From: Sinosporangium album
Lineage (GTDB): Bacteria > Actinomycetota > Actinomycetes > Streptosporangiales > Streptosporangiaceae
Length of the DNA stretch: 64,000 nucleotides
Reading direction: 5' to 3'
Assembly (NCBI RefSeq): GCF_900100605.1
Contig: NZ_FNCN01000005.1
Coordinates: 100,828 to 164,827 of the forward strand
Under the pieces are notes generated by a model. That model worked only from the letters and a program-made list of their open reading frames with translations, was not told the origin of the DNA and searched no databases. Positions 2,809-51,233 of this stretch are shown piece after piece. Both the position numbers and the translations under genes were made by a program. The stretch's first letter is position 1. Every line of letters starts with the position of its first letter.

Positions 2809-5775
2809 ATGGGCAAGTTCAATGGAATGAATCCCCAGCTTGTCCGGGGACTGCTGGCCGAGGCGAAGAACATGGCCGGCCAGATCAGATCCATTGACAG
2901 CCGTGTCACCCAGCTGTTGAGCGCCGCGGGAGTCCCCTCGGGAACACCGGTCAGACCGGCGCAGGTCGCCGACAGCCTTGACGAGATGGTCCGCGATCTC
3001 ACCGTGAGAGTGGAGCTACTCGAAAAGCGCGAGGAGCAGCAGCAGATCGCCGACCCGCCCCGTGTCGAAGGCCAGTCCGTCGAGGCCACCCCGCGAGACC
3101 CCGGGGCTGACAACACGGACAAGGATCAGGACGACACGGACAAAGGCGCGGCCGAAGGCCCGAAGAACGCCACGGACGACAAGGCCAAAACGCCCGAAGG
3201 CGGGTCCGGCGGGGGAGACGCGCAGCGCCCCCAGGGCGGGGGAGACGCGAAGGGCGACCGCCCGGAGACCGGGGCGAAGGCCGACGGGGAGAGCGGCAAG
3301 CGAGGCGACGAGGCCAAGGGCGACCCCAAGGGGGACGCCAGGTCCGACAAGGAAGCCAAGACCGACCGGGACGCCGGTGTCGGCCGCGACGAGTCCAAGG
3401 ACACCGCTTCGGGCCGGGACGCGCGGGGCGACGGCGACGCCGCCAAGGACGGCAAGGATTCTGGTGGTCGTGACGAGTCCAAGGGTGAGGCCAAGGACGG
3501 TAAGGACGATCGCGGCGAGTCCAAGGGCGAGGCCAAGGACGGTAAGGACTCTGGCGGCCGTGACGAGTCCAAGGGCGAGGCCAAGGACGGTAAGGACTCT
3601 GGTGGTCGTGACGAGTCCAAGGGTGAGGCCAAGGACGGTAAGGACGATCGCGGCGAGTCCAAGGGCGAGGCCAAGGACGCCAAGGACGGTAAGGATTCTG
3701 GCGGTCGTGACGAGTCCAAGGGTGAACCCAAGGGCGATCGGGACTCCAAGGGCGAGCGCGACCGTGTGGGTGACCTCCGGGAAGTGCCCCAGGGGGATGA
3801 GGGTTCCAGGGACGACCGTGACGCGTCGGGCGGTCGCAATGACACCAGGAGTGCCTCTGCGGACGGTCGGCCCGTGGACGGCGGCGACTCCAAAGCCGGC
3901 CGGGATGATTCGGTCGGCGACCCCGCGAAGGACGGTGGCAAGGACTCCGGCGGTCGTGACGAGCCGCGAGGCGAGCCCAAGGGTGAGCGGGACGCCGGTG
4001 GCGATCGGCATGGCGAGGCCAAGGGCGACCGGGATTCCAAGGGTGAGCGGCTGAATGTGGGCGATGGCTCGCGAGGCGACGGCGGTGGCGACCTGCGGGA
4101 TGAGCCTCGGGACGATCGCGGTTCTCGCGATGAGCGGGACTCGGGCGGCGACTCCCGCGGGGAGCCCAAGGAAGACCGGGGCGCCAGGGGAGACAGAGAC
4201 CTCGACCAGCGACGCGATCAGGACGGCGCGCGAGATTCACGCGACTCTCGCGAGAGGTACGGCGACGGCCGGGACGACGTGGGCGCTCCCGAGCGCGACT
4301 CGCGGGGCCCGGGCGTCTCGGCGGCATCCGACGGGCAGGACCGCACGGAGGGTGCCTCACGTGACTCGGACGACCGCTCGGAAGGTAAGAGCAGGGAGTC
4401 GGACGACAGAGATCGGTCGGATCGGGGCAAGGACCCCGACGACAAGGACCGGTCGGACAGCCGGGGCAAGGACTCGCGGGACCGCGACGGCTCGGAGCCG
4501 CGTGGAAAGGACTCCGCCGATCGGGGCGGGTCCGACGGTAGGGGCGGGGATTCGCGCGGCCGTGACCCCGACGGCCAGAACCGGATGGACACTCCCGGTA
4601 AGGACCATCCCGATGACCGGGACACCAGTGGTGGCCGACGGGTCGTCGAAGTCGACGGCGTCAAGATAGTCGAACAGCCGATGGGGCCGCCGCCGACAAT
4701 GGACGAGATTCGCGACATGATGGCCAACGCGAAGCCGATGGAGACGCCGGTCGCCGAGGATCTCGTTCTCAGCGATTACGCGACGGATGCGAAGAACCCC
4801 TACTCCGCCGCTGATGGGCCTCCTGGCCGCATCGCCGGTACGCCCGACCCCGGGGTCAAGCCGGACTTCCCAATCCCGGACACGGCGGAGTACGCCGGTG
4901 ATCCGGGCGACTCGCGCGGTTCGGGCGGCCGTGACGACCGGCCTTCGGTGTCCGACGCGATGGACCGCTCGGGCCTCGGGGAGCGCGCATACGGCGGAGA
5001 TCGCGGGCTGGATGATGGCGTCCGCAGCCATGGCGATCGTCCGCAGGATCCCGATTACGGGGATAAATCGCGATCTGAGGGTGATGGGGACCGGGAAGGC
5101 AAAGGGGAGCGCTCACGGGATCCTGGACGTGATTCTGGAGGTGATGCGTGGGATCGTCGGGATGCTCGGGATGCCCAGGACACGGACTACCAGAATGACC
5201 GTCCTGAGAAAGACGATCCCGTCCGGGAGGACTCCGGCGGGGACGAGTGGGCGGGCGACGGCGAGCGGGACTCGAAGGGCGACCGTTCACGCGATCCCGG
5301 GCGTGAGCCTGAGGGTGATTCGCGAGATCGCCGGGATGATGCTCGGGGCGCGGGTTACGCAGGTTACGTGGACTATCGGGATGCGGACTATCGGGACGAT
5401 CGGATCGCCGGTGAGCGGCGGGATGACGACCGGTTCGAGGATCGTCGGCAGGACTCGGATCGATATCGCGACGATCGGGACCGGGGCGAGGAGTCCGAGA
5501 GGGGTTCCTCCAAGGACGGCGACCGGGACCGCGATGGGCGGGACCGGGACGACCGGGACCGCGGGGGTTCGGCCAAGGAGGACGGACGGGAGTCGAAAGG
5601 CGACCGGGCCAGGGAGCCGAGGGACGGGGTTCCCCGGCCGGGTGAATACGGTAATGACTGGCGCAAAGGTCCGGTGACGGAGCCGGTTTCCCCGCCGGCG
5701 CCGGACGGGCTCCGGCTGGCCTCGGACGGCATGGCCACGGTTGATCCACTGGACAGGCGCGGCGTCGAGAGGTAG
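2809..5775 (+). CDS. Unrecognised 988-residue repetitive polyampholyte protein
   Basis: Not recognised. Residues 1-85 look like a folded helical hairpin: a helix at about 7-37, a Pro/Gly turn, then a second helix at about 48-77 ending in RVELLEKREEQQQ. Residues 86-610 and 710-945 are low complexity, almost entirely Asp, Glu, Lys, Arg, Gly and Ser with interleaved charges. Between them, at about 609-707, lies a more ordinary segment (VVEVDGVKIVEQPMGPPP, then TMDEIRDMM). The C-terminus (about 946-988) is Pro-rich with little charge patterning. There is no signal peptide or membrane segment. The ATG follows GGGAGAG. The reading frame is intact for 3 kb with GC-rich third positions, so I take it as a real gene. 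It probably forms an operon with 5786-6160. The N-terminal hairpin vaguely resembles N-terminal modules of some actinobacterial type VII-linked proteins; that is inference only. Confidence 0.75.
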   Translation: MGKFNGMNPQLVRGLLAEAKNMAGQIRSIDSRVTQLLSAAGVPSGTPVRPAQVADSLDEMVRDLTVRVELLEKREEQQQIADPPRVEGQSVEATPRDPGADNTDKDQDDTDKGAAEGPKNATDDKAKTPEGGSGGGDAQRPQGGGDAKGDRPETGAKADGESGKRGDEAKGDPKGDARSDKEAKTDRDAGVGRDESKDTASGRDARGDGDAAKDGKDSGGRDESKGEAKDGKDDRGESKGEAKDGKDSGGRDESKGEAKDGKDSGGRDESKGEAKDGKDDRGESKGEAKDAKDGKDSGGRDESKGEPKGDRDSKGERDRVGDLREVPQGDEGSRDDRDASGGRNDTRSASADGRPVDGGDSKAGRDDSVGDPAKDGGKDSGGRDEPRGEPKGERDAGGDRHGEAKGDRDSKGERLNVGDGSRGDGGGDLRDEPRDDRGSRDERDSGGDSRGEPKEDRGARGDRDLDQRRDQDGARDSRDSRERYGDGRDDVGAPERDSRGPGVSAASDGQDRTEGASRDSDDRSEGKSRESDDRDRSDRGKDPDDKDRSDSRGKDSRDRDGSEPRGKDSADRGGSDGRGGDSRGRDPDGQNRMDTPGKDHPDDRDTSGGRRVVEVDGVKIVEQPMGPPPTMDEIRDMMANAKPMETPVAEDLVLSDYATDAKNPYSAADGPPGRIAGTPDPGVKPDFPIPDTAEYAGDPGDSRGSGGRDDRPSVSDAMDRSGLGERAYGGDRGLDDGVRSHGDRPQDPDYGDKSRSEGDGDREGKGERSRDPGRDSGGDAWDRRDARDAQDTDYQNDRPEKDDPVREDSGGDEWAGDGERDSKGDRSRDPGREPEGDSRDRRDDARGAGYAGYVDYRDADYRDDRIAGERRDDDRFEDRRQDSDRYRDDRDRGEESERGSSKDGDRDRDGRDRDDRDRGGSAKEDGRESKGDRAREPRDGVPRPGEYGNDWRKGPVTEPVSPPAPDGLRLASDGMATVDPLDRRGVER
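3445..3729 (+). repeat. 48/42-bp in-frame tandem repeat array
   Basis: Two related units alternate: a 48-bp unit encoding KDGKDSGGRDESKGEA (3445-3492, 3535-3582, 3583-3630, 3682-3729) and a 42-bp unit encoding KDGKDDRGESKGEA (3493-3534, 3631-3672), with a 9-bp KDA insertion before the last copy. The last copy ends in Pro in place of Ala. Copies are near-identical at the nucleotide level, which suggests recent expansion. Confidence 0.9.
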
Positions 5776-27554: not shown

Positions 27555-28850
27555 TTACTCCTGCCACCACTCGGAGTCGTCGTCGGACTTGCTGCTCGCG
27601 CTGGGCTTGGCGGCGGCGGCGGCCGGCACCGGCTTCTCCGCGACGGTCGCGGCCAGGGCCGGCTTGGGCGGAGCCGCGGTGACGGCGGGAGCGGGGTCGT
27701 CCGCGCCGGGCAGCGGCGCGCCGCCGAGGAGCTGGCGGAGCTGGGCGAGGTGGCTCGTGATGCTGTCGCGCTGGCGGGTGAGCTCGTCGACCTGGCGCTG
27801 CATCGCGGTGCGGGTGCGCTCGGCCTCCGACTTGGCCTCGCTGACGATCGTCTCGGCGCTGCTCTTGGCGTCGGCCACGACCTGGTCGGCGTTCTTGCGC
27901 GCGTTGGCCAGGAGCTGCTTGGCGTGCGTGTCGGCCTCGCGGCGGGTCTGCTCGGCCTGCTGCGTGGCCTTGGTGGCCCGCTGCTCGGCGGTCGCGGCCC
28001 GCTGCTCGGCCTCGGCCACGAGCTTCTGGGTGGCGGCCTGCGCGGTGGCGTGGCGCTCGGCCTCCTGGCGCTCGGCCTCCTCGCGGCGGGCGGCGAGCTG
28101 GATCTCGAACTCGGCCTCGTCCTGGGCCCGCTTGGCCTCGGACTCCTCCAGCACCCGCTGGGCCTGGGCGCGCATCTCGTCGGCCTGGCGCTTGGCGGTG
28201 GTGAGGACCTCGTCGCGCTCGCGCTTGGTCGAGGCGCGAAGCTGGGCCACCTCGCGCTCGGTCGTCGTGCGGAGCTTGGCGATCTCGCGCTCGGCGTCGG
28301 CGCGCTTCTCGGCCACCTCGTGGTCGGCCGTGGCGCGCAGCTTGGAGACCTCGCGCTCGGTCGTCGCGGTCAGCTCGTCGGCCTCCCGGCGCGCCGTCGA
28401 GCGGATCTCCTCGGCGTCGCGGTCGGCGCTGGTCCGCATCTCCTCGGCCTCGCGGGCGGCGAGCGCCCGCTTCTCGGCCGCCTCGTTCTCGGCCGCGGCC
28501 CGCGTGTCGGCGGCGTCGACCTTGGCGGTCGCCTTGATCTCGTTGGCCTCGGAACGCGCGGCCTGCACCAGCTCGGTGGCCTGCTCCTCGGCGAGGCGCA
28601 GGAGCTGTTCGATGCGGGCGCCGAGGCCCGAGTAGGTCGGGCGTTCCTGCTCCTGCAGCTGCCGCTGGGATTCGGAAAGCTCTCGTTGGAGAGCCCCGGC
28701 CTGCTCGCGGGCCTGGCGCAGCTCGTTGTCGATCTGCTTAAGGTGGTCGTGGACCTGGTGCCGGTCGTAACCGCGGAGCACCACGTCGAATTCCCGAGCG
28801 GGGGCGTCCTCGAAGAAGTTGTTCAATTGGGCGTCGATGTCGGACTGCAT
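27555..28850 (-). CDS. filP: FilP-like coiled-coil cytoskeletal protein
   Basis: A 431-residue protein, mainly one long coiled coil rich in Ala, Glu, Arg and Gln (residues about 40-390), with a Pro/Ala tail ending SDDDSEWWQE. The N-terminus has the DivIVA-like REFDVVLRGYDRHQVHDHL. FilP of Streptomyces is an intermediate-filament-like protein of the hyphal tip that works with DivIVA and Scy. The neighbourhood (methylmalonyl-CoA epimerase, thiolase, meaB) matches that of filP in streptomycetes. ATG 28850 is chosen because the 34 extra residues from an upstream start look non-conserved. In frame with the coil, the repeats TTEREV and ADREAEE recur. Confidence 0.85.
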   Translation of the reverse strand: MQSDIDAQLNNFFEDAPAREFDVVLRGYDRHQVHDHLKQIDNELRQAREQAGALQRELSESQRQLQEQERPTYSGLGARIEQLLRLAEEQATELVQAARSEANEIKATAKVDAADTRAAAENEAAEKRALAAREAEEMRTSADRDAEEIRSTARREADELTATTEREVSKLRATADHEVAEKRADAEREIAKLRTTTEREVAQLRASTKRERDEVLTTAKRQADEMRAQAQRVLEESEAKRAQDEAEFEIQLAARREEAERQEAERHATAQAATQKLVAEAEQRAATAEQRATKATQQAEQTRREADTHAKQLLANARKNADQVVADAKSSAETIVSEAKSEAERTRTAMQRQVDELTRQRDSITSHLAQLRQLLGGAPLPGADDPAPAVTAAPPKPALAATVAEKPVPAAAAAKPSASSKSDDDSEWWQE

Positions 28851-31873: not shown

Positions 31874-32644
31874 CTAGGGGGCGGCGTCGAACTCGACGGT
31901 GACCTTGGTGAACCCGAGGGATTTGAACAGCCCCTGCAGCATGGCCTTGGTGTTCTGTTCGGCTCGGGCCCGCAGGTCCCCGGCCGTCGCGGCCTCCGCG
32001 ATCTTCTTCTCCGCCAGCGTGTACAGCTCGCGCTGGTCGTCCGGCGACCCGGACATGAAATCGCCCAACCGGTCGAACAGGCCGCGCTGGTGGGCGAACA
32101 CGTAGGATCGATCGTTGTCGAGGTTGGGCTTCTCCAGCCGTGCCCGGGGCAGGCGCACCGCGACAGCCGTACGGTCGTCCGAGACGGTCAGCGCGTCGCC
32201 CGAGAGCGCCGCGAAGTCGACGTAGGCGTCCACACCGCCCGCCGCGACGAACAGCGTGCGTTCACCCTTGATGGCGTCCGGCAGGAACGCGGCGTCACGC
32301 TCCAGGTCCACGACGACCTGGAAGTCGCCCGAGGCGGCCTCGAACCTGCTCAGGTCGTGGATCGACTGGAGCAGTGCGGGCCCGCCGCGTTCGGTGACCT
32401 TGTCCCCGAACGGATCCAGCCAGGTCCAGGCGAGCCACACCCCGCCCGCGAGAAGCGCGATGAAGGCGATGCCCCCCACGAGGAGGCGCCAGACCCATCC
32501 TCCGCGCCGAGCGGACCGCCCCGGCATGTCGGGGCGGTCGTAGGGCGCGGTCTGGGAGGAGTCTGACGGTGTGGATGGCTCCGGCGTGGGGGGCTTCTGT
32601 GCGGGGGTCTCCGGTGTGGGGTGTGTGGGGGGCTCAGACTTCAC
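31874..32644 (-). CDS. DUF4230-like membrane-anchored protein
   Basis: A 256-residue protein: Pro/Thr-rich N-terminus (1-45), one membrane helix at about 50-73 (WVWRLLVGGIAFIALLAGG), then an extracytoplasmic domain with FQVVVDLERDAAFLPDAIKGERTLFV and AYVDFAALSGDALTV. The latter pattern agrees with the DUF4230 family; function unknown. It is convergent with meaB and is followed upstream by a second membrane-protein gene on the same strand. Confidence 0.8.
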   Translation of the reverse strand: MKSEPPTHPTPETPAQKPPTPEPSTPSDSSQTAPYDRPDMPGRSARRGGWVWRLLVGGIAFIALLAGGVWLAWTWLDPFGDKVTERGGPALLQSIHDLSRFEAASGDFQVVVDLERDAAFLPDAIKGERTLFVAAGGVDAYVDFAALSGDALTVSDDRTAVAVRLPRARLEKPNLDNDRSYVFAHQRGLFDRLGDFMSGSPDDQRELYTLAEKKIAEAATAGDLRARAEQNTKAMLQGLFKSLGFTKVTVEFDAAP

Positions 32645-43164: not shown

Positions 43165-43232
43165 CGCTGTCACCCCCTATGTGGATAATAGTCACATACT
43201 GCCACAAGGCGTACCGTGACTTAATAAATTGG

Positions 43233-43261
43233 TTGCCATGTGGCAGAGACTGCCATAAGTT
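43233..43261 (+). promoter_or_regulatory. Promoter of the MFS gene overlapping TetR operator candidates
   Basis: Overlapping inverted repeats TGCCA-TG-TGGCA (43234-43245) and TGGCAG-AGA-CTGCCA (43241-43255) lie in the AT-rich divergent region. A -35-like TTGCCA (43233-43238) and a -10-like TAAGTT (43256-43261) with 17-nt spacing flank them, so a bound repressor would block the MFS promoter. A further CTGCCA half-site is at 43199-43204, nearer the tetR start. Confidence 0.55.
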
Positions 43262-43361
43262 ACCTACACTCTTTGTAGTGAGACGTCCGCCCTGTCCTGC
43301 CTTGAGGTGGTCGGCGGAGCCTCCATGCCTACGGCACACCACTCGAACAGGGGGACCCCCA

Positions 43362-44951
43362 ATGGCCCACGCGAAAACGGTGGCCACGCCACCACCTGAC
43401 TCCGGCGCTAGACGCAAAGGCCAAGGACATCCCTGGCTGACCCTGCTCGCGGTCGCACTGGGCGTGATCATGGTCATGCTCGACGGCACCGTCGTCGGCA
43501 TCGCCAGCCCCGTCATCGCCAAGGAACTCGGCGCCTCCCTCCAGGACCTCCAGTGGGTCACCAGCGGTTATCTGCTCGCCCTGGCGGTCTTCCTCATCAC
43601 CGCCGGCAAGCTGGGCGACATCTTCGGCCATAAGCGGATCTTCGTCATTGGCATCGTCGGGTTCACCCTGACCTCGCTGGCGATCGGTCTGTCCGGCTCC
43701 ATCGAATGGCTCATCGCCTTCCGCATCGCCCAGGGCCTGTTCGGCGCGCTACTCCAGCCCGCCGCCCTCGCGCTGCTGCGCGCCGCCTTCCCGGCCGAGC
43801 GGCTGAACATGGCGATCGGCATCTGGGGTGCCGCCATCGGTGTGTCCAGCGCGGCGGGCCCGATCGTGGGCGGCGTCCTCGTGGAGAACGTGAGCTGGCA
43901 GTCGGTCTTCTTCATCAACATCCCGGTCGGCATCATCGCCCTCGCGGTCGCCCTCTGGATCATCAAGGAGAACAAGGCCGCCACGGTCTCGCGGATCGAC
44001 TGGCTCGGCGTCGTGCTGCTGTCGGTCGCCATGTTCTGCCTGGTGTGGGCCATCATCAAGGCGCCGGAGTACGGCTGGGGCGACACCAAGACGCTGGCCT
44101 TCCTCGGCGCGACCGTCGTCCTGGGCGCGGCGTTCGTCTTCTGGCAGTCGAAGGCGGCCGAGCCGCTCCTCCCGCTGGGGCTGTTCCGCAACGTCTCGGT
44201 CTCGGTCGGCACCGTGCTGATGATGCTCATGGCGTTCGGCATGATGGGCGCGATGTTCTTCCTCACGTTCTACTTCCAGGGCGTGCATGGTCTGTCCCCG
44301 CTTGACGCGGGTCTGCGGATGATGCCCATGAGTGCGGGCATGATCGTCGCCTCTCCGCTGGCGGGCTTCGCCATCAGCAAGCTCGGCCCCCGGGTCACGA
44401 TCGCGGCGGGCATGCTGGTCACCGCCCTCGCGATGTTCCTCCTCTCGAACCTGACGATCGATACGGGTTACTGGGCCACGGCTCTGCCGTTCGCCCTGCT
44501 GGCCTTCGGCCTGTCCCCCGTCATGGTCGGCGCGACCGAGATCATCGTGGGGAACGCGCCGGTCGAGCTCAGCGGTGTGGCCTCCGGCATGCAGCAGTCG
44601 GCCATGCAGATCGGCGGCACCATGGGCACGGCGATTCTCGGCGCGATGATGGCCGCCACCGTGGGCAACTCCCTGCCGACGCGCTTCGCCGAGGCCGGTC
44701 TCCCCGCACTTCCTCCCGAGCAGGCCGAGATGATGCAGAGCGCCGTGTCCACCGGCATGGTGCCTCCCTCGGCGCCCGGCACCCCGCAGACGGTCGTGGA
44801 CGCCATCACCAACGCCTCGCACCTGGCCTTCATGGACGGGCTCGAGTTCGCCTTCATCGTCAGCACGGGTGTGGCCATCGTGTCCGCACTGCTCGCCCTG
44901 ATGGTCAAGGCCGGACGCAAGAGCGACGGTCCGACGGTGCACGTGGGCTGA
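43362..44951 (+). CDS. MFS multidrug exporter, DHA2 (EmrB/QacA) type
   Basis: Drug:proton antiporter of 529 residues with about 14 membrane helices. Motif D1 is in MLDGTVVGIASPVIAKEL, motif A in GKLGDIFGHKR, motif C in IGVSSAAGPIVGG. ATG 43362 has AGGGGGA upstream. The divergent TetR gene is its probable repressor, and two hairpins follow its stop. Substrate unknown. Confidence 0.93.
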   Translation: MAHAKTVATPPPDSGARRKGQGHPWLTLLAVALGVIMVMLDGTVVGIASPVIAKELGASLQDLQWVTSGYLLALAVFLITAGKLGDIFGHKRIFVIGIVGFTLTSLAIGLSGSIEWLIAFRIAQGLFGALLQPAALALLRAAFPAERLNMAIGIWGAAIGVSSAAGPIVGGVLVENVSWQSVFFINIPVGIIALAVALWIIKENKAATVSRIDWLGVVLLSVAMFCLVWAIIKAPEYGWGDTKTLAFLGATVVLGAAFVFWQSKAAEPLLPLGLFRNVSVSVGTVLMMLMAFGMMGAMFFLTFYFQGVHGLSPLDAGLRMMPMSAGMIVASPLAGFAISKLGPRVTIAAGMLVTALAMFLLSNLTIDTGYWATALPFALLAFGLSPVMVGATEIIVGNAPVELSGVASGMQQSAMQIGGTMGTAILGAMMAATVGNSLPTRFAEAGLPALPPEQAEMMQSAVSTGMVPPSAPGTPQTVVDAITNASHLAFMDGLEFAFIVSTGVAIVSALLALMVKAGRKSDGPTVHVG

Positions 44952-45045: not shown

Positions 45046-46668
45046 CTATGAGCGGGTCACGGTGAGGGTGTGCACGGGCACCGAGGGGTCGGTGGTCACG
45101 GAGAGCACCCTGCGGGCCGGATCCCACCGCGACACGGTCGAGGCGGCCGAGGCCGTGAGCGTGCCGCCCTCGGGGAAGTCCCCCGGCGGCAGGTAGATCT
45201 CCGTGTCCCCGCTGATCCGCCGGTCCGAGCGCAGGCGCACAGTGACGCGTCCCCGTTCCACTCGCACGAGCTCCGGGACGCCGGCCACCGCCCTTGGATA
45301 GGCCCGTGCGAGGGCATGCTCGCCGGTGGTCCTCTCCGCGGTGCTCTCCTCGGCTTCCCTGTCGGCCGTGTACGGCCGGAGCCCGCTGGGAGGGTTCGGC
45401 CTGTAGAGGCGTCCCATGCCGGATTCATCGGTCATGTTAAGAACTTTCTCCACAAAGGCCGCTGCTCCGGGGCGCGCCATGTCCACGCCGAACTCTCCCA
45501 GGACCACGGGCGCGTTGAGGCGTTCCGCCGTACGAAGCGTGTTGTCCCGCCACCAGGCCAGCGTCTGATCGGTCCAGGCGCGCGCGGTGCCCGTGTAGTC
45601 CGTGCCCAGGCTCAGCGGCGGCGGGTGGAGGTGGGGTGCCAGGCCGATGCGGGGCTCCCCCCGGCGCGGGTCGTCGACGGCGGGCAACCCGGACGGAAGC
45701 CCCCAGGTGACGCCGCCCGGCTGCGGCTCCAGGAAGATCCAACTGTCGGGGTCCACCGTACGGATCTCCTCGACGCACAGCCGGTAGAGCGCGGCGAGAG
45801 GGCCCCGTTCGAAGGCCGGACCCGCGAGAGACCCGCGCGGGGGGTGGTCCATCAGGTCGTAACCGAGCACCCCCGGCTCACGGGCGACGCGGGCGGCGAC
45901 GGCCCGCCAGGCCCGCGCGTAGCGCCGCGTCAGGTCGGAATCGGCGTCGGCGCTCGTCCAGAAGTCGTCGACGGCGCGGAGCCGCCGCCATTGCTCGGGT
46001 ACGGCCATGCCTGGAACAGGCGCGCTGTCACTGTTCACGCCTGCTTGGCGCGACGCGATGCCGGCACCTGGCAGGGCGCCGTCCCGGGGGGCGCCGTCCG
46101 GGGGGGCGCCGTCCGGGGGGGCGCCGTCCGGGGGGGCGCCGTCCGGGAGATCGCCGTCCGGGAGGACAGGGGCAGGGAGGCCGTGCCGCATGTCCAGGAT
46201 GACGTGGTAGCCCTGTCGGCCATACCACGCGACATGTTCGGCCACTTTGTTCAGATATTTCGTGTCATAGAAGTCGGGGGAGGGTTCTACGGCGCCCCAC
46301 CGCAATGGGAGCCTGACAACGTTGGCCCCGAGGTCCCGCCTTTCCTGCTCCTGCTCCGAGTCGCGCTTGCCCACGGCCGCGCCGCCGCCGGCATCGACGA
46401 TGCCCCGCTCCGCTGTACCCGCCCCCGCTGTGCCCCACTCCGCTGTGCCCGCCTCCACGATGTCCGGCGTGACGGCGCCCGGCTCGGTGGCGCCCGGCTC
46501 GGCGACGTCTGCGCCGAGGAAGCCGTGCAGCGTGAGCGCCCTGCCGAGATCGTCGGTCACGAACCGCGGCGCGCGCTGCGGAGGCTCACCCCGCGCGGCG
46601 GCGATCAGGGCGCCATTGGCCGCCAGAGCCACTGCGGAGGCAAGGATGACCCATATGGAACGCTTCAT
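45046..46668 (-). CDS. GH5-like (endoglycoceramidase-type) protein with altered catalytic residues
   Basis: A 540-residue secreted or anchored protein with an N-terminal hydrophobic segment (KRSIWVILASAVALAANGALIAA). The glycosidase-like TIM barrel is recognisable: GANVVRLPLRW, YHVILDMRHG, VLGYDLM near 268, VVLGEFGVD, and a C-terminal ALARAYPRAVAGVP domain. The acid/base site reads LMDHP (Asp274-His275) where the family has LMNEP; the usual DMHQD is DMRHG, and H-x-Y appears as HLH. The nucleophile Glu392 in GEFG is kept. Two low-complexity insertions occur, one a five-residue PDGAP tandem array. ATG 46668 is chosen, with GGAGG 13 nt upstream. It may be an inactive or repurposed glycosidase. 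Confidence 0.82.
   Translation of the reverse strand: MKRSIWVILASAVALAANGALIAAARGEPPQRAPRFVTDDLGRALTLHGFLGADVAEPGATEPGAVTPDIVEAGTAEWGTAGAGTAERGIVDAGGGAAVGKRDSEQEQERRDLGANVVRLPLRWGAVEPSPDFYDTKYLNKVAEHVAWYGRQGYHVILDMRHGLPAPVLPDGDLPDGAPPDGAPPDGAPPDGAPRDGALPGAGIASRQAGVNSDSAPVPGMAVPEQWRRLRAVDDFWTSADADSDLTRRYARAWRAVAARVAREPGVLGYDLMDHPPRGSLAGPAFERGPLAALYRLCVEEIRTVDPDSWIFLEPQPGGVTWGLPSGLPAVDDPRRGEPRIGLAPHLHPPPLSLGTDYTGTARAWTDQTLAWWRDNTLRTAERLNAPVVLGEFGVDMARPGAAAFVEKVLNMTDESGMGRLYRPNPPSGLRPYTADREAEESTAERTTGEHALARAYPRAVAGVPELVRVERGRVTVRLRSDRRISGDTEIYLPPGDFPEGGTLTASAASTVSRWDPARRVLSVTTDPSVPVHTLTVTRS
46076..46165 (-). repeat. Six-copy 15-bp in-frame repeat in the GH5-like gene
   Basis: Six contiguous 15-bp units of GCGCCGTCCGGGGGG type from 46076; the three at 46091, 46106 and 46121 are identical. 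They encode PDGAP-type pentapeptides on the minus strand and lie in a loop of the barrel following strand 3. Confidence 0.92.
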
Positions 46669-46789
46669 GGCGGTGACCGCGCCTCCCGAGGCATACAGGA
46701 TCGTGCATGGCATTGCTGTGTTCGCGCGAGAAGGGCGGAGAGCAAACTCCTGCTTTCCTGCAATGGCGCCTAGCGTTAACTTGCCTATC

Positions 46790-47326
46790 ATGAGCGCTGT
46801 TCGCAGGAATTGTCCTGCGTTAGTGGCACTGATTCTTGTCCTCTGGTTCAGTGGCTTAGGTATGCCCATGGCGGTGAGTCTTGGCTATCTCGCTGAATCG
46901 CCTGGGATGGGGCCGGTGGGGCTGACGGGGACACTTGGGGTGGTATCCCCTGAAATGGCGGTGGCACACGGCCTGCCCGCCCTGCGGGCCGTGCCGTACG
47001 GCGAGGCCGGGATCGGGGCGCTGCTCCTGGAGAACGTGGCGGCGGCCGTACTCGTGGCGGTCGTGTTCTTCGCGTCGCCGACGGCGGGAGGACGCGTGCG
47101 GTTCTTCGCCGTGGGATGGGCGGTGTTTGTTCTGGGTGCGGTTGTCGCGGGTGTTTTCCGAGGTGTCGTGGCGGCTCAGACGGTCGAGGCGGGGCTCGGG
47201 GCGTATGCGGGCCATCTCCTCGGCGGCGTGGTGGGTGGTGTGGTCTGGGGGGTCGTCCTGGGATGGATGTGTGGAATCGGGGCTCTGGTGGGGAGAGCCG
47301 TTCAGCCCGGAGTGGGTGCCGAATAG
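46790..47326 (+). CDS. Small integral membrane protein, unrecognised
   Basis: A 178-residue Gly/Val/Ala-rich membrane protein with about four helices (near 8-30, 80-100, 108-130 and 142-165). Function unknown. ATG 46790 has no evident Shine-Dalgarno; TAGCGTTAACTTGCC lies just upstream, so leaderless or short-leader transcription is possible. It is divergent from the GH5-like gene and 10 nt ahead of the DUF3039 gene. Confidence 0.72.
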   Translation: MSAVRRNCPALVALILVLWFSGLGMPMAVSLGYLAESPGMGPVGLTGTLGVVSPEMAVAHGLPALRAVPYGEAGIGALLLENVAAAVLVAVVFFASPTAGGRVRFFAVGWAVFVLGAVVAGVFRGVVAAQTVEAGLGAYAGHLLGGVVGGVVWGVVLGWMCGIGALVGRAVQPGVGAE

Positions 47327-50168: not shown

Positions 50169-51233
50169 ATGGCTGAACCGGGGATCGTCGCAGCGGGAGG
50201 AGGCGCCGTGGACGATGACGAGGTCCCCCCGCGCCGTCGCGGCCGGTTAGGCCGCTGGGGACGCCGTACGGACGACCAGGAAGCCGACGAGTGGAACTCC
50301 TGGCTCACCGCCGGCGATGACGACGAACCCGCCCGCCCGGCCGCCGGGCTCCCGCAGCGCGAGGCGGCGCGTGACCGGCCGCAGGCGCCGCGACGCCTCT
50401 CCATCGGCCGCCCGTCCTTCGTGCGGCCCTACGCCGAACCCGAGCCCGCGGCGGCCGACGAGGGTGACGCGGGCGAGCCGGGCGAGAAGTGGGACGCGCT
50501 GCCGCCGTCGGCACGCTGGTACGGCACGCCCGCCAAACCGGATACGGCGAAGGCGGGCAAAGGCGGGCACCGCGGAGCGATGGTCTTCGGCGTGCTGGGC
50601 GCCGGAGCGGGCGTGGTCGCCGCGACCGTGTGGGGCGTCCTGACGCTCACGGCACCGGAATCCCTCTCGACGGGTGCCGAGGCGAACGCCGACGCCGCCA
50701 CCGGCATCGGCTATCCCATCCCCGACGGGTGGCGCCACGACGCACTGCCGCCGGTCAGCGGATTCACCTCCGCCGTGCGCGGCGGCGGCTCCGTGCTCAT
50801 GATCGGGCCCGGGTCCACGCGGCCCGGTACGGCCGACACGGACAAGAGCGCCTCGGACAAGAGCGCCTCGGACAAGAGCGCCCCGGACAAGAGCGCCCTG
50901 GGCACGAGCGCCTCCGGCAAAGGCGACCCGGACATGAGCGTTCCCGCCAAGGCCGTCGTCGAGCTGACCGAGCTGTACGAGGACCTCCTCCTCCAAGGCA
51001 GCGACGTGGAACTGGTCGAGGACAGGCCCTTCAACGTGGCCGGCTTCACCGGCCACAGCCGCTCGGTGCGCGCCGTCTACAACGATGTGATCAACCGGCC
51101 GGCCTTTCTCCGTGTGTTGGTGCTCACACGTCCCGGGCGCGACGCCGTCGTCCTCGCGGTCTCCCAGCCCGACGGAGACGGGGTGCGGTCGGAGATCGAC
51201 GACATCATGAGCGGGCTGTGGGCGGCTCGCTGA
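50169..51233 (+). CDS. Single-pass membrane protein with extracytoplasmic domain, unrecognised
   Basis: A 354-residue protein. The Arg/Pro/Ala/Asp-rich cytoplasmic part (1-135) precedes one membrane helix at about 136-160. Outside, residues 175-354 form a small alpha/beta domain (GIGYPIPDGWRHD, FNVAGFTGHSRSVRAVYN, VVLAVSQPDGDG). A five-residue tandem repeat interrupts it at about 225-249. Function unknown. The outer domain resembles substrate-free lipoprotein-type domains only in general layout. Confidence 0.78.
   Translation: MAEPGIVAAGGGAVDDDEVPPRRRGRLGRWGRRTDDQEADEWNSWLTAGDDDEPARPAAGLPQREAARDRPQAPRRLSIGRPSFVRPYAEPEPAAADEGDAGEPGEKWDALPPSARWYGTPAKPDTAKAGKGGHRGAMVFGVLGAGAGVVAATVWGVLTLTAPESLSTGAEANADAATGIGYPIPDGWRHDALPPVSGFTSAVRGGGSVLMIGPGSTRPGTADTDKSASDKSASDKSAPDKSALGTSASGKGDPDMSVPAKAVVELTELYEDLLLQGSDVELVEDRPFNVAGFTGHSRSVRAVYNDVINRPAFLRVLVLTRPGRDAVVLAVSQPDGDGVRSEIDDIMSGLWAAR
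50841..50915 (+). repeat. 15-bp in-frame repeat (DKSAS type)
   Basis: Five contiguous 15-bp units starting GACAAGAGCGCCTCG (50841, 50856) and diverging to the fifth (GGCACGAGCGCCTCC, 50901). They encode DKSAS, DKSAS, DKSAP, DKSAL, GTSAS. Confidence 0.9.

Follow-up and report, generated by a model that had tools for sequence, protein, structure and literature searches.

The gene at 45046-46668 on the reverse strand of the window (the whole 64,000-nucleotide stretch of Sinosporangium album DNA analysed here) encodes an endoglycoceramidase-like protein in which the acid/base catalyst appears to have been replaced, and raises the question of whether such a protein is still an enzyme, is kept for some other purpose, or is decaying. 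The 540-aa translation starts MKRSIW and combines a hydrophobic N-terminus with a GH5 barrel and the C-terminal domain of GH5 proteins, with matches to PF00150 (2.4e-18) and PF18564 (3.2e-6) that are both above cut-off; its best solved relative is the Rhodococcus endoglycoceramidase II (PDB 2osw, E 1.7e-81, residues 105-538). The cut-off of the NCBIfam endoglycoceramidase I equivalog was missed (74.9 bits versus 700), and the intact Nonomuraea protein L001 also falls below it (163.9 bits). We give about an even chance to the reading that this is a dead hydrolase, a syntenic orthologue of the Streptosporangiaceae endoglycoceramidases, kept as a folded and exported pseudoenzyme. At the level of sequence, the alignments show that the acid/base Glu and most sugar-pocket residues have been replaced, and that the nucleophile, most structural invariants and the open reading frame have been kept.

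Catalytic residues and the sugar pocket

The motifs described in the earlier note, LMDHP (D274-H275), DMRHG (159-163), HLH (346-348) and LGEFG with E392, are all found in the translation, and the GAC CAC codons lie at 45844-45849 as it had claimed. The catalytic positions could be marked through crystallised mutants, given that 2osy differs from 2osw at the His275 column and 2osx at the Glu392 column: His275 aligns with a position occupied by Glu in 2osw and by Ala in 2osy, in agreement with the claimed loss of the acid/base catalyst (DHP for the NEP that follows strand 4), and Glu392 with one where 2osw has Glu and 2osx has Ser, so that the nucleophile, which follows strand 7, is indeed kept. 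The catalytic residues of Rhodococcus endoglycoceramidase II are given as Glu233 and Glu351 (PMC8497620), and His275 occupies the position of Glu233 when the protein is aligned with the PDB chains.

For a broader comparison, the Nonomuraea protein was used as query against 341 genomes of the family, with a match in 81; 78 relatives were aligned, three loci identical to L001-L003 having been set aside along with 22 weaker match rows, and were complemented by the best-scoring 26 loci found among 394 genomes of the class. The Asn216-Glu217 pair (L001 numbering throughout for the relatives) is kept in 78/78 family relatives and in 26/26 of these class-level loci, two of whose genomes repeat the family set; His is absent from the acid/base position in all 104 rows. 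Among the sequences compared, Asp-His in place of Asn-Glu, for which the earlier note had proposed a survey, occurs in this protein alone.

Invariant columns were set from 70 relatives, after eight of the 78 (two broken, six distant) had been dropped, and 19 of the 74 such columns are changed in the 540-aa protein; eight other rows put through the same test show 0-5 losses each. Among the residues lost are N50, T51, K56, H125, Q126, D127, N216, E217, Y290, W365 and S366, and among those kept are R83, H288 and the nucleophile E334. Four of the seven invariant Trp residues remain (W88, W112, W252, W315; lost are W146, W162 and W365), and Y290 is the sole loss among seven invariant Tyr. The claim that the overall barrel motifs remain holds for most structural invariants (55/74 kept), and the losses reach beyond those listed at first, to Trp365 (now Arg423), Lys56 (Glu57) and Asn50 (Leu51).

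The substitutions in the sugar pocket are K56E, H125R, N216D, Y290H and W365R, the Tyr290 equivalent being a residue which we take to belong to this pocket. Sgl1 is a relative of endoglycoceramidase II with a solved structure, and its contacts with the docked glucose are described as including Lys47, His142, Asn269, Glu270 and Trp570 (PMC8497620); by motif context these map to K56, H125, N216, E217 and W365. Since all five equivalents are changed in the 540-aa protein, its usual sugar site appears to be dismantled, and ordinary sugar binding is doubtful as well. This weakens the suggestion that the protein might bind, but not cleave, a glycolipid or glycan, as does the replacement of two invariant Trp residues in the region of the beta3 loop.

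The losses are concentrated where catalysis would take place. Invariants at the C-terminal ends of the strands, which form the active face, are lost in 11/23 cases versus 8/51 elsewhere (p 0.005), and with the two insert-bearing stretches dropped the figures are 10/22 versus 2/42 (p 0.0002), the strand ends being assigned by DSSP of a low-confidence model and strands 7 and 8 by motif position. Similarly, 5/6 of the Sgl1 glucose-contact equivalents and nucleophile taken together are lost, versus 14/68 of the other invariants (p 0.004). The structure prediction itself has a mean pLDDT of 46 and came from a shallow alignment of four sequences; the intact L001 predicted with the same four sequences reaches only 48, which points to the depth of the alignment, rather than degeneration of the protein, as the cause of the low value.

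With no carboxylate to protonate the leaving group or to activate water, cleavage of glycosphingolipids by the retaining mechanism would be impossible for this protein. The earlier note had left room for an unusual mechanism. One such mechanism would have His275, perhaps together with an aspartate, protonate the leaving group and Glu392 act as nucleophile, as in the glycosidases with a His/Asp dyad. Retention of the nucleophile and of the equivalents of Arg83 and His288 is compatible with such an enzyme, and there is precedent in that GH117 uses a working His/Asp dyad and a His acid has been proposed for the retaining GH3 enzyme NagZ and for GH156 (PMC11574756). These are other families, however. 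A His acid assisted by a close Asp is conceivable in this protein as well, but the remainder of its pocket is dismantled: the equivalents of Tyr290, Asn216, His125, Lys56 and Trp365 have gone too, no relative has His at this position, and the pattern of change fits relaxed constraint with a GC-ward drift. We found no positive support for the idea, since no new Glu or Asp aligns with the acid/base residue and the Asn next to it has become Asp274, and regard an active enzyme of this kind as very improbable.

An error of sequencing or assembly, or a chimera, could in principle mimic the loss, the sequence coming from a single draft genome of 97 contigs with repeats within the gene. Against this stand at least nine separate active-site changes, scattered along a frame that is unbroken, and a C-terminal half that aligns in the ordinary way; we consider an artefact hardly credible.

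In two of its loops, one after beta1 and one after beta3, the 540-aa protein has gained in-frame 15-bp repeats (Table 1). Tandem repeats with a period of 15 bp are also present elsewhere in the window, at 5520-5563, 28051-28085, 32567-32621 and 50839-50940, and several of the 15-bp repeats sit within genes as pentapeptide repeats. In the one congener compared, the corresponding stretch (L068) is without a 15-bp array, and the orthologue of 50169-51233 is without the DKSAS repeat.

Table 1. Coordinates of features at the endoglycoceramidase-like locus, in window positions
Feature	Position	Strand	Basis
DHA2-type MFS efflux gene, syntenic flank	43179..44951	+	synteny comparison
GH5 endoglycoceramidase-like gene of putative pseudoenzyme, 540 aa, intact ORF	45046..46668	-	translation, Pfam, PDB match
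GH5_C beta domain, C-terminal, residues 455-537	45058..45306	-	PF18564
beta8: invariant Trp365-Ser366 to Arg423-Pro424	45397..45402	-	alignment
Nucleophile position Glu392, kept	45493..45495	-	PDB and relatives alignments
beta6: invariant Tyr290 to His348	45625..45627	-	alignment
Acid/base site: invariant Asn-Glu to Asp274-His275, codons GAC CAC	45844..45849	-	PDB and relatives alignments
15-bp tandem repeat, PDGAP pentapeptides, 94% matches, 5.9 copies, beta3 loop region	46074..46162	-	repeat search
beta3 end: invariant His-Gln-Asp to Arg161-His162-Gly163	46180..46188	-	alignment
15-bp tandem repeat, insert after beta1	46404..46456	-	repeat search
15-bp tandem duplication (EPGAT/EPGAV), insert after beta1	46474..46502	-	repeat search
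beta1 loop: invariant Asn50, Thr51, Lys56 to Leu51, Gly52, Glu57	46498..46518	-	alignment
Putative export signal, N-terminal, hydrophobic, residues ~1-26	46591..46668	-	judged by eye; helix 3-26 in low-confidence model
Intergenic region common to both divergent genes	46669..46789		sequence
Small membrane protein, 178 aa, divergent neighbour	46790..47326	+	neighbourhood and profile searches

Ancestry of the gene and its divergent neighbour

The gene order MFS2, protease, membrane protein, endoglycoceramidase, MFS, TetR and YqgE is common to the window and to the Nonomuraea loci L001 and L003. In the tree of the family the 540-aa protein is placed inside, as sister to a Nonomuraea-containing clade (support 97/83), on a terminal branch of 1.25 versus a median of 0.076. 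Matched trees give an endoglycoceramidase path of 1.04 here versus 0.27-0.51 in the sisters, an acceleration of 2-4 times for this gene; the lineage as a whole is not accelerated, the control genes showing 0.18 versus 0.09-0.20 (helicase) and 0.047 versus 0.05-0.12 (malic enzyme). Given the synteny, the place in the tree and the unaccelerated control genes, the 540-aa protein is an accelerated, vertically inherited syntenic orthologue of the Nonomuraea endoglycoceramidases. The same three observations reject an origin as a duplicate or as a foreign gene. A search of the host genome for a second endoglycoceramidase copy with the 540-aa protein matched only the protein itself; two further places with GH5-family matches were found there (C9:292714 and C28:33822). 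A search for members of the Pfam ceramidase family was negative in the host genome but also in the controls, and is hence uninformative.

The gene lies next to one for a divergently encoded membrane protein of 178 aa, which has no match above cut-off in Pfam and none in NCBIfam. This membrane-protein gene divergently adjoins the endoglycoceramidase gene in 30/30 loci examined (L034-L063), and it is present in 42 of the 341 family genomes: 40 of the 44 with a close endoglycoceramidase, versus 2 of the remaining 297. Such a distribution would make the uncharacterised membrane protein a candidate for a partner that works with the active enzyme in the breakdown of glycolipids. In the window it has evolved at an ordinary pace, with a path of 0.64 in the matched trees versus 0.44-0.79 in the sisters. 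Should the dead enzyme still serve a function, the membrane protein would be the first place to look.

In the single other genome of the genus that was compared (G001), the genes for the endoglycoceramidase and the membrane protein are both absent; about 690 bases separate the flanking genes (L068 7702-8389), some 415 bp of neighbouring sequence align with the window at 83%, and a search of this gap for gene remnants returned only matches at the level of chance. The absence of both genes suggests that the unit is dispensable there, which counts against retention.

Retention or decay of the putative pseudoenzyme

The close rival to a retained pseudoenzyme is the decay of the gene, to which we assign a probability somewhat short of even: selection would have been lifted in the genus, the congener having deleted the gene together with its neighbour, and S. 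album keeping an open but drifting copy. Besides the two genes missing from the congener, decay would be in keeping with frequent loss of the gene in the family, where a strong match (E 1e-85 or better) is found in only 72 of the 341 genomes, and with two relatives that look broken, L073 (G348) and L104 (G164), one having a stop and one being split between frames. These interrupted genes may represent repeated loss in the family; sequencing error is another possible cause.

The signs of a pseudogene were looked for directly: all 540 codons are open, with zero internal stops or frameshifts in spite of several indels, a point against decay, and when neutral evolution was simulated to a comparable loss the frame stayed free of stops in ~2-11% of runs. 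An antisense open frame of 567 aa (45070-46773, forward strand) spans the whole gene, an expected by-product of GC-rich coding DNA. Open frames are thus cheap in this DNA and weak evidence, which favours decay. The codon-position GC is still gene-like, with a GC3 of 0.856, slightly under the 0.87-0.91 of the neighbours. The ratio of GARP to FYMINK residues is 4.08 in the 540-aa protein versus 1.76-2.61 in ten relatives, and among the lost invariants there are 13 AT-to-GC changes versus 4 in the reverse direction. This GC-ward drift in amino acids and the slightly low GC3 count against retention, and the drift, along with the growth of minisatellites in the loops, speaks for decay.

A branch model with a single omega was uninformative, the branch being saturated. 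We therefore turned to a three-class codon model with a clock borrowed from the sister lineages. Its assumptions are that mutation rates are equal and that composition is stationary, the second of which is violated by the composition drift. Neutrality over the whole branch is rejected under this model, by ~300 log units with the sister clock and by ~60 with the length left free. A uniform recent neutral phase of ~0.3-0.5 (fitted at ~0.37) out of a path of 5.62 raises the likelihood by ~39 units, loop regions excluded, as decay would have it. Release of a subset of sites beats uniform release by 15 log units; however, ordinary tips also prefer the site subset, by up to 10, so this contrast is weak and we do not lean on it.

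Further points in favour of a retained protein come from the apparent unevenness of the losses. Outside the active face, and with the insert stretches dropped, 40/42 invariants are kept. The neutral phase (t2) amounts to 0.58 for residues 109-164 and 231-300 versus 0.15 for residues 301-424 and 457-540 (p 0.001), and the contrast is similar for assumed paths of 3.5 and 8: constraint has relaxed far more in the N-terminal part of the barrel than in the C-terminal part, and the C-terminal half is nearly as constrained as in active relatives. This and the unaccelerated gene of the partner membrane protein count against decay. Only a single sequence of this dead kind was found, which counts against retention.

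On the reading of a retained pseudoenzyme, hydrolase activity would have been lost in this lineage, with a (beta/alpha)8-plus-beta-domain protein still being made, folded and exported. Its non-catalytic job would be extracellular, probably in connection with the membrane protein encoded divergently from it, and may be carried out by surfaces of the beta domain and of the barrel's C-terminal half instead of the old sugar pocket; these are the least certain steps. The full version of this scenario, an endoglycoceramidase turned into a dedicated non-catalytic extracellular partner of the small membrane protein, with the pocket released and the C-terminal half and beta domain still serving as working surfaces, we consider unlikely.

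Comparison with known GH5 proteins and implications

The barrel and C-terminal domain of Rhodococcus endoglycoceramidase II (2osw/2osx/2osy, GH5) can be aligned with those of the 540-aa protein and the nucleophile is common to both; the latter differs in having His275 for Glu233, Asp for Asn, a replaced sugar pocket and loops filled with repeats. The Nonomuraea orthologues L001-L003 are ~45% identical to the 540-aa protein and 79-88% to each other, and, together with the other Streptosporangiaceae relatives, they all keep the full catalytic set, unlike the 540-aa protein.

GH5 proteins with incomplete catalytic machinery have been described, and include GH5_30, a subgroup of GH5_1 from Xanthomonas, lipoproteins related to GH5_8, one member of GH5_48 and Rsi24C-GH5, two of the non-catalytic groups having long branches (PMC3526467). 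By its sequence the 540-aa protein resembles these in combining a GH5 fold with incomplete machinery, although none of the groups is presented as an endoglycoceramidase branch in the account of them given there. According to the same source, Rsi24C-GH5 is the only distant GH5 member without its acid/base residue for which a functional characterisation exists. Rsi24C acts as a sensor and is fused to an anti-sigma factor, whereas the 540-aa protein is a stand-alone, exported pair of domains. A search of open-licence papers found no dead endoglycoceramidase. Non-catalytic GH5 proteins are thus already known, and, judged from sequence, the 540-aa protein adds one.

For annotation, the finding carries a warning: the gene at 45046-46668 should not be annotated as an endoglycoceramidase. 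If real, the loss would also provide a before-and-after pair, an active-looking Nonomuraea orthologue and a dead orthologue within the same gene order, in which to study how catalysis is lost in a glycosidase.
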